Shown here: positions 2,461 through 6,477 of the stretch, one piece after another
Layout of the letters: every line of letters starts with the position of its first letter
Numbering within the stretch: the first letter of the stretch is position 1
Virus record (IMG/VR): IMGVR_UViG_3300037502_003333
Span: 1-20,199 of that record
Direction: 5' to 3' (one strand)
DNA from: a virus
DNA length: 20,199 nt
Program-made: the position numbers and the translations under genes
The notes under the pieces: model-generated
The model's input: the letters and a program-made list of their open reading frames with translations, nothing else
Told to the model about the DNA's origin: nothing
The model's database searches: none

Positions 2461-4164
2461 TTACCAACCCATCATTTTGAGGTATTCTTCTGTCATTTCG
2501 TTAACGTCTGCGGTGTCGATTTTCAACATCGCTCTTACATGTGCGTTCAAAACCGCTGCAATCGGGTCAATTCGTTCTGTTGACTTGCTTTTATCTAGCA
2601 TAATATTTTCGTTCGCATCCTGCCTTGTGACCGCATTGGAAAGAGCCCATGTCAATACAGGATTGTTGTTATGGATAATATTTCCTTGGTATACTTGCTC
2701 GCGAAAATCTTTTGTTGCGCCGCCTAATGTTTGAATCCCTTGCCGAATTTCGACTACCGTGTATCCTTCCGCTTCCATGTCCTGCATGAATTGCGTAGCG
2801 TTCCAAGGGTCGGCGCAGATTTCTCTTACTTTCACGTTGTATTGCTGTTCAAAATTCTTGATATACGACTTGATAAAGTTATAATCCACTACTGCGCCTG
2901 GTGTGGTTGTAATCCATCCTTGCTGTGCCCATAAGTCATATGGTACTTTATCCGTTTTTCTTTTCCGGTCTATCGTATCTTCCGGCATAAAACTGTGGCT
3001 TAACACGATGTATTTGCCATCCTTTTTAAATTCAAAACTCACGCTCGTTAAGTCGATTTTAGCAGATAGGTCAACGCCGACGGTACATTCAAGACCTTCA
3101 AGGGTGGGTAAATCAAAGTCTTGTCCGCATGCCGCCCATTTCGACATGTCCATATAGCCGTTATCTTTCACGTCTACCCATATATTCATGTTTTTGGTCA
3201 AGAAGTTTCGCATTTTCTCCGGTACATCGAGCGCCGCTTTTAACTCTCCACGTAAAAAATTAACCCCCTCCTCGTATGAACAAAGGATGGGGTTGGCTTT
3301 TTCCCAGTTCTTTTCGTCTTTAATGTCATCGTCTTTGTCAAGCTCGTTTATCATGACAAAGTATTCCTCGTTTTCAATTGGGTTGTCAGGGTCGAGTATT
3401 TTCGAGACATATTGATACTCGACAGAATAACAAGGATGGTTCAAATTAAAGCCTGCGGTTGTAATAATCACCATTAACGGTTGCGGTCTTGCGCCCATGC
3501 CGGATACAAGAACGTCATATATTTCAGATGTAGGATGGGCATGGTATTCGTCAATAATTCCGCACTGCACATTCAACCCGTCGCCTGTTTTCCCGGCATC
3601 TTTGGAAAGTGCGGCAATAAACGAGCCGCTTTTTAAATGCTCGATTTTTCCGTAAGCGATTTTGTATTTGCCTTTTAGGAAGTCACATCCTTGTATTTGC
3701 GCTTTAGTTTCATTCCACACGATCCTACTTTGTTCTGTTTTCGTAGCCCCGATATATACCTCGCTCATGTTTTCGCCGAAAGCAAACCCCTCGTAAGAGC
3801 CGACGCAGGCAAGAGACTGAGATTTTGCATTCTTCCTACCCACTTGCCAATAACCTTTTTTGAATCTCCTTAGCCCGGTATCTTTATGAACCCATCCGTA
3901 AATATTTCCAAACACAAATATTTGTATTGGGTGCGGTTTGATATATTCTCCAGCCAATTTCCCTTTGGTGTGTTTAAATAAAGTCATCCATTTTAAGAAG
4001 CGGAGGGCCTTTTCTTCATCGAAAATATACGGAAATTCTTCCGTTCCTTCCCGTTCGATGTCGCGCAAAAACCGTTCGCACGCCCATTTATGCTTTTGAC
4101 AGGAAACGATTTCGCCATTTAATACGTCGTGGCAATAATCAATAAGCCATTGTTTCAACATCAT
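2461..4164 (-). CDS. terL: Terminase large subunit (packaging ATPase/nuclease)
   Basis: This 567-residue Terminase_1-type protein drives DNA translocation into the prohead and cuts the concatemer. The ATPase P-loop is GRKNAKS (residues 109-115), the usual GRKNGKS with Ala for Gly. The Walker B motif is CGIIDEYHAH (D205, E206). The C-terminal RNase H-like nuclease shows VGVDLSAKIDLTS (D365), ICADPWNATQFM (D452) and RIDPIAAVLNAHVRA (D533) as its metal-binding acidic residues. The start ATGATG at 4164 overlaps the TGA of terS, so the two are translationally coupled. Length and motif spacing are normal, with no sign of damage. Confidence 0.95.
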   Translation of the reverse strand: MMLKQWLIDYCHDVLNGEIVSCQKHKWACERFLRDIEREGTEEFPYIFDEEKALRFLKWMTLFKHTKGKLAGEYIKPHPIQIFVFGNIYGWVHKDTGLRRFKKGYWQVGRKNAKSQSLACVGSYEGFAFGENMSEVYIGATKTEQSRIVWNETKAQIQGCDFLKGKYKIAYGKIEHLKSGSFIAALSKDAGKTGDGLNVQCGIIDEYHAHPTSEIYDVLVSGMGARPQPLMVIITTAGFNLNHPCYSVEYQYVSKILDPDNPIENEEYFVMINELDKDDDIKDEKNWEKANPILCSYEEGVNFLRGELKAALDVPEKMRNFLTKNMNIWVDVKDNGYMDMSKWAACGQDFDLPTLEGLECTVGVDLSAKIDLTSVSFEFKKDGKYIVLSHSFMPEDTIDRKRKTDKVPYDLWAQQGWITTTPGAVVDYNFIKSYIKNFEQQYNVKVREICADPWNATQFMQDMEAEGYTVVEIRQGIQTLGGATKDFREQVYQGNIIHNNNPVLTWALSNAVTRQDANENIMLDKSKSTERIDPIAAVLNAHVRAMLKIDTADVNEMTEEYLKMMGW

Positions 4165-4655
4165 ACATCACCGAATAGTTTTTCTTCCGGTGTCGGCTCT
4201 TTTTCTTCTTTCTTTGGCATTGCGAGCTTTGCCCGTGCACTTGGTGATAAACCGAATTCAGATGCAACAGCTTTCATTTGCTCGAATAGCTGCTTCTTTT
4301 TCGTAAGCAGCGGGTGCGGCACTTTGTTCGTTTCCGCTGCTTTGTTCGTATACTCAACCATCAGACCTTCTTCTTGGATAAGTTTTGTACATTTCACATA
4401 GTTTGAATAGGCGTCACAATAGGTAGAGAGCAAGTGGATGTCCGCTTCTGTCACTAACCGGACTTCCTTCAAAAGTTCAGCAAGTCGGTTAAATTCTTGC
4501 TTTGCAACGTCATCCAGCCATTCTGGTGGTTCGATATTTTCATCACGCATCCGCAATGCTTCTTCCGCTGCTTTCCGTTGTTCGATTTCTTTTTTCGTTA
4601 GGTGTTTATTGCCCTTAATCAGCATTAAATCAATTGGAACAGCCTTTCTTGCCAT
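4161..4655 (-). CDS. terS: Terminase small subunit, P27 family
   Basis: This is 164 residues from the ATG at 4655 (MARKAVPIDLMLIKGNKHLTKKEI), which has GAGGTGAG at the right distance. The frame stays open upstream to 4745, but that extension runs through a GC-rich dyad cluster and has no ribosome site, so it is excluded. P27-type features are the KGNKHLTKKEIEQRK opening, EPPEWLDDVAKQEFNRLAELL, DIHLLSTYCDAYSNY and a C-terminal FGLSPSARAKLA motif. The small subunit recognises the packaging site and hands DNA to TerL. It sits between the candidate cos region and terL and overlaps terL by four bases. Confidence 0.92.
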   Translation of the reverse strand: MARKAVPIDLMLIKGNKHLTKKEIEQRKAAEEALRMRDENIEPPEWLDDVAKQEFNRLAELLKEVRLVTEADIHLLSTYCDAYSNYVKCTKLIQEEGLMVEYTNKAAETNKVPHPLLTKKKQLFEQMKAVASEFGLSPSARAKLAMPKKEEKEPTPEEKLFGDV

Positions 4656-4703
4656 TTTTCTCACCTCACTTTTGCCCCCTTTAACCAAATAAAGGGAATT
4701 TTG

Positions 4704-4742
4704 TTCGCGCGAAGGTGCCCGCACCGGTCCCGGAGACCTCCG
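4704..4742. other. Candidate cos (packaging) site: three adjacent dyads
   Basis: The 107-base gap between the HNH gene and terS holds a GC-rich cluster of three dyads. TTCGCGCGAA (4704-4713) is a perfect 10-bp palindrome. GGTGC-CC-GCACC (4714-4725) and CGGAG-AC-CTCCG (4731-4742) each have perfect 5-bp arms around a 2-base centre. ACCGGT (4723-4728) is a further palindrome between them. Surrounding DNA is AT-richer. In cos phages that encode an HNH endonuclease next to terminase, cos lies just upstream of terS, exactly this place. The cut position cannot be read from sequence alone. Confidence 0.55.
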
Positions 4743-4762
4743 CAAAACTTTTTCATGCCCCC

Positions 4763-5155
4763 CTATCCATACCGTCGTTTATCCTCCGCCGTCTTGCGGT
4801 TGTGGCAGGCTTGGCATAACGATTGCAGGTTATCCATATCCAATCGCTTGCTCCAATCCACCAACAAAGGAACAACGTGGTCAACAATGACTGCCCTTGT
4901 AATCTTCTTCTCTTTCAAACAATGTTGGCATAAGTAATTGTCTCTTGCTAAGACAGCTAGTCTAACCCGTTCCCACTCTCGGCTATGGTAGAAGGCTCTT
5001 GCTTGTTGGTTCCGTTTATGCTTGTCGTATTCCTTATCGTTCCGTCTTGTTCGCTGTCTCTGCTCGGCTAGATGCTTATGTTGCCCGCAATATCTATCCC
5101 TTGTTAAGTTAGTGCAACCGATCTTGTTGCATGGTTTTAGTGGTCTGTTTGGCAT
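4763..5155 (-). CDS. HNH endonuclease (packaging-associated)
   Basis: This 130-residue HNH nuclease shows a ββα-metal core: CQHC (C76, C79), VDHVVPL with the catalytic-type D92-H93, DNLQSLCQACHNRK with N109, C114, C117, H118 and N119. The two CxxC pairs form the structural zinc site. A second possible zinc knuckle lies at the N-terminus (C9, C14, C23, H26), followed by a very basic helix. Proteins of this type beside terS are required for cos cleavage in several Gram-positive and HK97-like phages, so that role is inferred here from position. ATG at 5155 follows GGAGTGATTTA, directly after a small terminator-like hairpin. Confidence 0.9.
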   Translation of the reverse strand: MPNRPLKPCNKIGCTNLTRDRYCGQHKHLAEQRQRTRRNDKEYDKHKRNQQARAFYHSREWERVRLAVLARDNYLCQHCLKEKKITRAVIVDHVVPLLVDWSKRLDMDNLQSLCQACHNRKTAEDKRRYG

Positions 5156-5868: not shown

Positions 5869-5956
5869 AAAAAATAAAACCACAAACAGCCATGCGCACG
5901 ATATTTTTAAGGGAGTTTTCTCAACTCCTTTTCTCGTATTTTTGCGCTGTCTGTGG
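5869..5956 (-). terminator. Structured leader RNA ending in terminator-like stem
   Basis: On the minus strand CCACAGACAGC (5946-5956) pairs along all 11 bases (one G-U) with GCTGTTTGTGG (5880-5890), and the second arm is followed at once by TTTTATTTTTT (5869-5879). Inside the 55-base loop is a further hairpin GGAGTT-GAGAA-AACTCC (5912-5928), and GCGCA/TGCGC can extend the base of the loop as an alternative. It lies about 40 bases downstream of a good promoter and before the first late gene, so it could be a small RNA with its own terminator or an attenuator. No other gene occupies this gap. Confidence 0.55.
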
Positions 5957-6001
5957 GTTGTAAAAAATACGTAATATCTAACTGTGCTATTTCCTCACGC
6001 T

Positions 6002-6049
6002 ATCATAATAACACGAAAAAAGGTTTCAAAAGTATCATGATAGTATCAT
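6002..6049 (-). promoter_or_regulatory. Candidate late promoter with repeat operator
   Basis: On the minus strand TTGAAA (6024-6029) and TATGAT (6002-6007) are 16 bases apart, close to the housekeeping consensus. Three bases upstream of the -35 box lies the perfect palindrome TATCATGATA (6033-6042). It is part of an 8-bp direct repeat, ATGATACT, at 6042-6049 and 6031-6038, start-to-start 11 bp (one helical turn). The promoter begins just after the stop of the RinA-family gene and faces the late operon. This is the usual position of a RinA-controlled promoter; binding itself is inferred. Confidence 0.65.
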
Positions 6050-6051
6050 TT

Positions 6052-6477
6052 TCATCTCCACCCAATTACTTCCGCAATCGCGTAAATAATTTCATTTCTC
6101 CATCGAAAAACCGTAGCCCTTCCAACATTCAACGCCTCTGCAATCCCATCCATGGTTAAGCGCTGTGGTTTTGTCCAATATTTTAGCTTCACCAGTTTTT
6201 TATATTCATCCGGAAGCTGGCGGTACACTTTATCAATAGCTGCTGTGATCTCTTCCATCCTTTGCAATCTTTTATGTGTCAACAACCGGTTAGCTGTTCG
6301 CTCTGTCGGAGAAGAAGGGAGATTACTTCTCCCGCCACCGACATTTTCATCTTGCTCCGTTTTTTCAAACAGTATTTCCTTTCGCAATCTTTCAATCTCT
6401 CTCAATGTTTCGTGGTAATAATACAGCTCTGCTTCAATATGCTTGAACGTCTGTTTCTTTAACTTAGTTATGGTCAT
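6052..6477 (-). CDS. RinA-family late gene transcriptional activator
   Basis: This 141-residue protein matches the RinA family of phage regulators in length and pattern. It has an N-terminal helical region (FKHIEAELYYYHETLREIERLRKEI), a linker with GGGRSNLPSSPTERTANRLL, then AIDKVYRQLPDEYKKLVKLKYW. It ends in a σ70-region-4-like HTH, LTMDGIAEALNVGRATVFRW. In staphylococcal phages RinA activates transcription of terS and the late operon. Here the gene sits immediately before a promoter facing the terminase genes, which supports the same job. The start ATG at 6477 overlaps the helicase stop by four bases. It is intact, with a strongly basic C-terminal helix. Confidence 0.88.
   Translation of the reverse strand: MTITKLKKQTFKHIEAELYYYHETLREIERLRKEILFEKTEQDENVGGGRSNLPSSPTERTANRLLTHKRLQRMEEITAAIDKVYRQLPDEYKKLVKLKYWTKPQRLTMDGIAEALNVGRATVFRWRNEIIYAIAEVIGWR

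Follow-up and report, generated by a model that had tools for sequence, protein, structure and literature searches.

Gene Organization of the Locus

The window, meaning the whole stretch of viral DNA that was analysed, is a virus record of 20,199 bases in which a rinA-family late activator gene is followed on the minus strand by small genes, an HNH endonuclease gene, and the genes of the small (TerS) and large (TerL) terminase subunits, in this order and on the same strand (Table 1). The rinA gene reads from 6477 to 6052 and closes with a TGA stop codon at 6054–6052. Its RinA type, proposed earlier from the letters alone, is borne out by profile searches; the 141-residue protein scores 88.8 bits against the RinA family profile NCBIfam TIGR01636 (curated cut-off 31.9) and matches phrog_36 at E 4.6e-36, while the Alt-like phrog_2198 is matched at E 6e-4 only, which does not place the protein in the Alt family. 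In the AlphaFold2 model (pLDDT 84.9), a helix-turn-helix is formed by residues 109–116 and 120–138. Positions p1 to p9 denote G119-R120-A121-T122-V123-F124-R125-W126-R127 of this protein; the last helix (120–138) holds p2–p9, with p1 immediately before it, and the code residues discussed below are 119 (p1), 121 (p3), and 125 (p7). The top PDB fold match of the modelled C-terminal domain is SigA region 4 (rmsd 1.8 over 60 columns, with a weak E of 0.12), and the leading place of sigma region 4 in the fold list agrees with a published remark that the C-terminal part of a RinA protein is like sigma region 4 (PMC12323379).

Table 1. Features of the rinA–terminase region, with positions in the window.
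Feature	Positions	Strand	Evidence
rinA-family late activator gene, 141 aa	6052..6477	-	TIGR01636, phrog_36, AlphaFold2 model
Putative operator half-site 1, ATGATACT, about -52 to -45	6042..6049	-	position kept in relatives
Spacer ATC, 3 bp, between half-sites	6039..6041	-	column statistics
Putative operator half-site 2, ATGATACT, covering the -35 position (about -41 to -34)	6031..6038	-	covaries with half-site 1
TTTGAAA, conserved TTTNG(G/A) block after half-site 2; includes the TTGAAA of the sequence-only reading	6024..6030	-	column statistics
Likely extended -10, TGT-TATTAT = TGTTATTAT, conserved register	6005..6013	-	column statistics
TATGAT, -10 of the sequence-only reading, less conserved register	6002..6007	-	comparison of sites
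ATGATAGCGTG, matches the conserved block ATGNTANTGTG around the predicted start ~5998	5996..6006	-	column statistics
Hairpin within the 5' leader predicted for the late transcript, CCCACAGACAGCGC...GCGCATGGCTGTTTGTGG	5880..5956	-	fold z -3.0
HNH endonuclease gene of the downstream operon	4763..5155	-	Pfam HNH 4.6e-13
Terminase small subunit, P27 family	4161..4745	-	profile matches
Terminase large subunit	2461..4164	-	profile match

A Conserved Repeat Pair Downstream of rinA

Right behind the rinA stop, the minus strand reads ATGATACT-ATC-ATGATACT-TTTGAAACC...TGTTATTATGATAGCGTG, that is, two exact copies of ATGATACT facing the terminase operon at a start-to-start distance of 11 bp. The repeats, a palindrome, TTGAAA, and TATGAT named in the sequence-only reading were all found in place on this strand. 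The 8-mer has two occurrences in the 20.2 kb window, both in this pair, and the spaced pair is unique in the window even with 3 mismatches, at an expectation of 0.14 from shuffles; the evidence for a real site comes from relatives and not from such window statistics.

A first protein search of viral contigs returned ATGTCACT, ATGGCACT, or ATTGCACT, each in two copies right after rinA and always 11 bp apart, so that the one-turn spacing noted earlier in the window also holds for relatives that share this regulator; a protein search of genome contigs gave one weak locus, which carried no site. A protein-blind site pattern, ATNNNACT-N3-ATNNNACTTTNG-N16-TATNATG, yielded 42 matches, most of them directly after the stop codon of a RinA-family gene. 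When RinAs from all searches to that point were pooled and sites were scored on their fixed letters alone, a pair was found downstream in 82 of 124 distinct RinA relatives, whereas the 3 kb upstream held one in 2 of 124; in a set retrieved by protein alone the corresponding counts were 47/75 and 1/75. The remaining 42 of the 124 RinAs had no scored site within reach, several of them showing degenerate copies by eye, and for some RinAs without an adjoining site other genes lie between rinA and the site.

The half-site consensus is ATxyzACT, in which the three middle letters vary between phages and change in both copies. Across 42 sites, chosen without regard to the middle letters and belonging to RinAs below 75% identity, the two copies carry the same middle letter in 108 of 126 cases (shuffled pairing: mean 54.6, maximum 77, 0/10,000 shuffles reaching the observed value). 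Such coordinated change would be expected if both half-sites are read by one protein.

Promoter Elements and Predicted Start

The sequence-only reading had placed a promoter at TTGAAA (6029–6024) and TATGAT (6007–6002), separated by 16 bp on the minus strand. However, a scan for sigma-70-like promoters gave 9 sites in 3.5 kb against 7.6 expected, with no excess over chance, and the promoter call therefore cannot stand on consensus alone. In relatives, the TTGAAA hexamer varies (TTGGCC, TTGAGC, TCGGGG, and others), whereas the TTTNG(G/A) block is conserved. A TA..AT element lies 21 bases after half-site 2 with T in 40, A in 42, and the last T in 42 of 42 sites, usually preceded by TG; in the window it corresponds to TATTAT at 6010–6005, 3 bp upstream of TATGAT. 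At the hexamer read earlier, 3 bp further, the key A is present in 35 of 42 sites. The T, A, and final T are complete in 40/42 sites in the TATTAT register versus 26/42 in the TATGAT register. Because the protein-blind search pattern had fixed TATNATG, the register was retested on the sites found by protein alone, in which the same three letters are complete in 21/23 and 11/23, respectively. The TATGAT register had been reconsidered on account of TTGACA at 16-bp spacing in PSA, L060, and L062, and the protein-only sites settled the matter for TATTAT. The promoter faces TerS and TerL, in agreement with the late-operon direction proposed earlier, but the comparison supports neither TATGAT as the -10 nor TTGAAA as a conserved -35; the likely -10 is the extended element TGTTATTAT at 6013–6005, from which transcription would start at ~5998 instead of the earlier 5995.

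The block ATGNTANTGTG (window 5996–6006 and relatives) is as conserved as the -10 and shows no change with the RinA helix. A role as a third half-site was considered, as ATGATAGC resembles ATGATACT, and was rejected because the block stays the same while the helix varies (e.g., L011, L033). The repeats and the -10 stand at a fixed distance across phages, and the geometry, with a putative activator site overlapping the -35 position, an extended -10, and a poor -35, is the layout of class II activation.

Association of Half-Site Letters with the Recognition Helix

Every column of the protein alignment was scanned against each middle letter. For letter x, p7 was the best column (z-score 23; next best 3.9); for letter z, it was p3 (z-score 14); and letter y associated with p3, p1, p7, and p2. 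Arg at p7 (residue 125) is accompanied by x = G in 62/62 cases and Asn, Tyr, or Ala by x = T in 17/17, an agreement that holds in 21/21 sites at under 60% identity. At p3 (residue 121), Arg goes with z = C (46/47), Ser or Thr with G (6/6), Ile or Asn with T (5/5), and Ala with G (16) or T (4), all four T cases belonging to the clade of the window itself. With residues other than Arg at p3, Asn, His, or Asp at p1 accompanies y = C (14/14), and Ser, Gly, or Thr accompanies y = A (16/18). When the tree is computed with the helix columns left out, p7 undergoes 14 changes and so does x; independent pairs agree in 8/8 cases for p7 and x (p 0.008) and in 7/7 for p3 and z (p 0.016), while the crossed controls, p3 with x and p7 with z, are not significant on this tree.

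These associations suggest that x is set mainly by residue 125 and z by residue 121, and that y depends on residues 119–121. Across about 80 related viruses, then, the letters of the landing site vary together with particular RinA residues, such that the site would be partly predictable from the protein. The earlier claim that the operator of this RinA branch is readable here thereby gains support, as the half-site letters track the recognition helix. The window site itself carries z = T with Ala at p3, a minority outcome; since Ala at p3 mostly gives G, more than one site would be compatible with the code in the case of the window.

Predictions Outside the Training Set

In phages D6E and E2, no site adjoins rinA. 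From the D6E helix KRQAMRWR a ATGTCACT pair is expected, and from the E2 helix RITCLRWR a ATGATACT pair; whole-genome scans found exactly one pair in each genome (49 kb and 41 kb, respectively), of the expected kind and about 1.1 kb downstream of rinA. In the Geobacillus phages PK5.1, PK3.5, and PK3.6 (L066–L068, L073–L075), there are three or four half-sites at 12-bp spacing rather than two at 11 bp; PK5.1 (ERQALRWR) has ATGTCA(C/G)T three times after one inserted gene, TGATACT occurs four times in PK3.6 (RPTVFRMR), and TTGCACT three times in PK3.5 (RRKVFLMR).

The rules were then recorded before a further search and applied to RinAs 27–67% identical to the set, where x was predicted in 16/19 cases, z in 15/17 under a lenient scoring that allowed G or T for Ala, Ser, or Thr at p3 (the passing cases all had G), and y in 8/15, so that letter y is only partly explained out of sample. 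The x rule fails in phage EW and in a subfamily whose members have 8 extra residues inserted ahead of the helix; one failure of the z rule is a mis-registered phiSLT repeat, which by eye reads ATTGTGCA. The insertion subfamily (L225, L224, L281, L286, L288, L298) carries CGCAAT/CGCACT arms that break the x rule.

Direct and Inverted Layouts

Among distant RinAs, direct repeats at 11 bp occur in phiSLT and phi12 (ATTGTGCA), SP38-1, and PSA, while inverted arms at 19–21 bp start to start occur in Streptococcus Javan264 (GTGACAAAAA..TTTTTGTCAC), in viral contigs (TTGGCACAA..TTGTGCCA), and in staphylococcal EW. In both layouts the repeats directly follow rinA and precede the same block of TATTAT type. 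Counted by hand in EW and the Javan phages, the first arm sits at the position that copy 1 holds among direct repeats, and about 11 bases separate the end of the second arm from the -10; hence, as hand-measured in these few phages, the first half-site apparently keeps the same distance from the -10 in both layouts. Inverted arms were seen at L220, L222–L225, L228, L230–L243, L254, L255, L259, and L265, the named loci among these being phages of Streptococcus and Staphylococcus.

Taken jointly, a short and largely modular code of the RinA family (p7 to x, p3 to z, p1/p2 to y), combined with one half-site used in two layouts, is a reading favoured by a modest margin of belief. In the papers covered by the literature search, no description of a RinA recognition code or a layout switch was found. 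The kind of site is already known from RinA, Alt, and Ltr, and the novelty of the operator itself is uncertain.

Proposed Mechanism and Alternative Explanations

The element is very probably the RinA operator and the RinA-dependent late promoter of this phage, and this segment probably serves as the switch for turning on its late (packaging, particle) genes. In the mechanism proposed, two RinA DNA-binding domains (a presumed protomer number), each a sigma-region-4-like helix-turn-helix, would occupy a pair of direct ATxyzACT half-sites spaced by one helical turn (11 bp), with the second half-site over the -35 position; the host RNA polymerase, presumably contacted there, would be recruited by a class II-like mode of activation to an extended -10 (TGnTATTAT) promoter without a good -35, at a time expected to be late in infection.

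Several other explanations have to be weighed against this one. An ordinary host sigma-A promoter, TTGAAA-16-TATGAT, beside which the repeats would be incidental, has 10 of 12 consensus matches and normal spacing in its favour; it is nonetheless highly improbable, as TTGAAA is not conserved as a -35, a good -10 in the TATGAT register is often absent, and the repeats keep a constant distance from the -10 across phages. A phage repressor, an anti-repressor, or a host factor might instead own the pair, given that direct repeats by phage promoters are generally also typical of repressors, but the letters x and z follow the helix residues of RinA with tree-independent support, and the expected site is present in D6E, E2, and PK5.1 despite the intervening genes, which leaves little room for another regulator.

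That RinA might bind here as a repressor or autoregulator, and not as a late activator, is hinted at by a site that touches the 3' end of rinA, yet this too seems very unlikely, considering that a conserved extended -10 directed towards terS lies downstream of the half-sites and that activation is the known function of RinA, Alt, and Ltr (PMC13123087, PMC9867676). Finally, TATCATGATA (6042–6033, minus strand) is a perfect 10-bp palindrome in the window and had been noted earlier as embedded in the repeats, and it might be regarded as an RNA hairpin or a dyad operator. Its exact form recurs in 2/42 diverged sites only, both carrying a GAT half-site, and is a by-product of the common ATC spacer followed by ATGATA; the comparison largely refutes a dyad or hairpin, a notion with next to no probability left, and the palindrome was set aside as incidental.

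Comparison with Known Systems

The RinA of Staphylococcus aureus phage phi11/80alpha, reportedly studied by Ferrer in 2011 and Quiles-Puchalt in 2013, resembles that of the window in its protein family and in a gene position just before the late operon. Its relatives phiSLT and phi12 likewise have two copies of the repeat at 11 bp and the same -10 block; compared via these relatives, the system differs from the window in its half-site letters. The CII protein of phage lambda has direct repeats around the -35 position, at a spacing of about one turn, and activates a promoter with a poor -35, but it is unrelated to RinA in protein and half-site, and the analogy is functional only.

Binding of RinA to a region of DNA repeats that precedes terS has been reported (PMC9867676). 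Alt of lactococcal TP901-1 is also a late activator with direct repeats just upstream of its late promoter, placed at -76 to -32 (as cited in PMC13123087), but it belongs to a distinct family and its repeats are four and imperfect, in contrast to the two of the window. Ltr of Staphylococcus phage phi13, whose gene stands directly before its own repeat-bearing promoter as in the window, is stated to be without sequence similarity to RinA, and its repeats differ, being three of 18 bp plus one partial at -107 to -42 (PMC13123087). As for the code, DNA-binding residues have been correlated with site letters across the MerR family (PMC5045206); the kind of analysis is the same, applied to MerR and not to RinA.

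In many phages that infect Gram-positive bacteria, packaging and lysis are governed by RinA-type activators, whose operators have been difficult to recognize because the activators are so diverse in sequence. Should the code hold, the late promoter of such a phage could be located and its RinA specificity predicted from sequence, as could cross-activation between co-resident prophages; if it is truly modular, each phage would have a private late operator, and operators would be readable from the protein across the family. The family offers a natural series of protein–DNA pairs in which residue and base have changed together many times, and the residue–letter table offers direct mutational tests.

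Features of the Predicted Late Leader

The hairpin at 5880–5956 is kept in L002–L004, in which the flanks differ, and is a possible leader RNA element or terminator. An Rfam search of the window gave no match; in related loci, RF02967 (DUF3800-VII RNA) is found at L107:4086–4175 and L044:1719–1808. Terminator-like hairpins between the promoter and terS raise the question of how far the late transcript extends and of read-through. On the minus strand, three gene junctions (~5702–5660, ~5415–5395, and ~5199–5155) are similar to one another; all of them carry a GCATCC/GGATGC-type element and a T run, and at each a TTTATTTGGAG ribosome-binding site stands just before a small gene.
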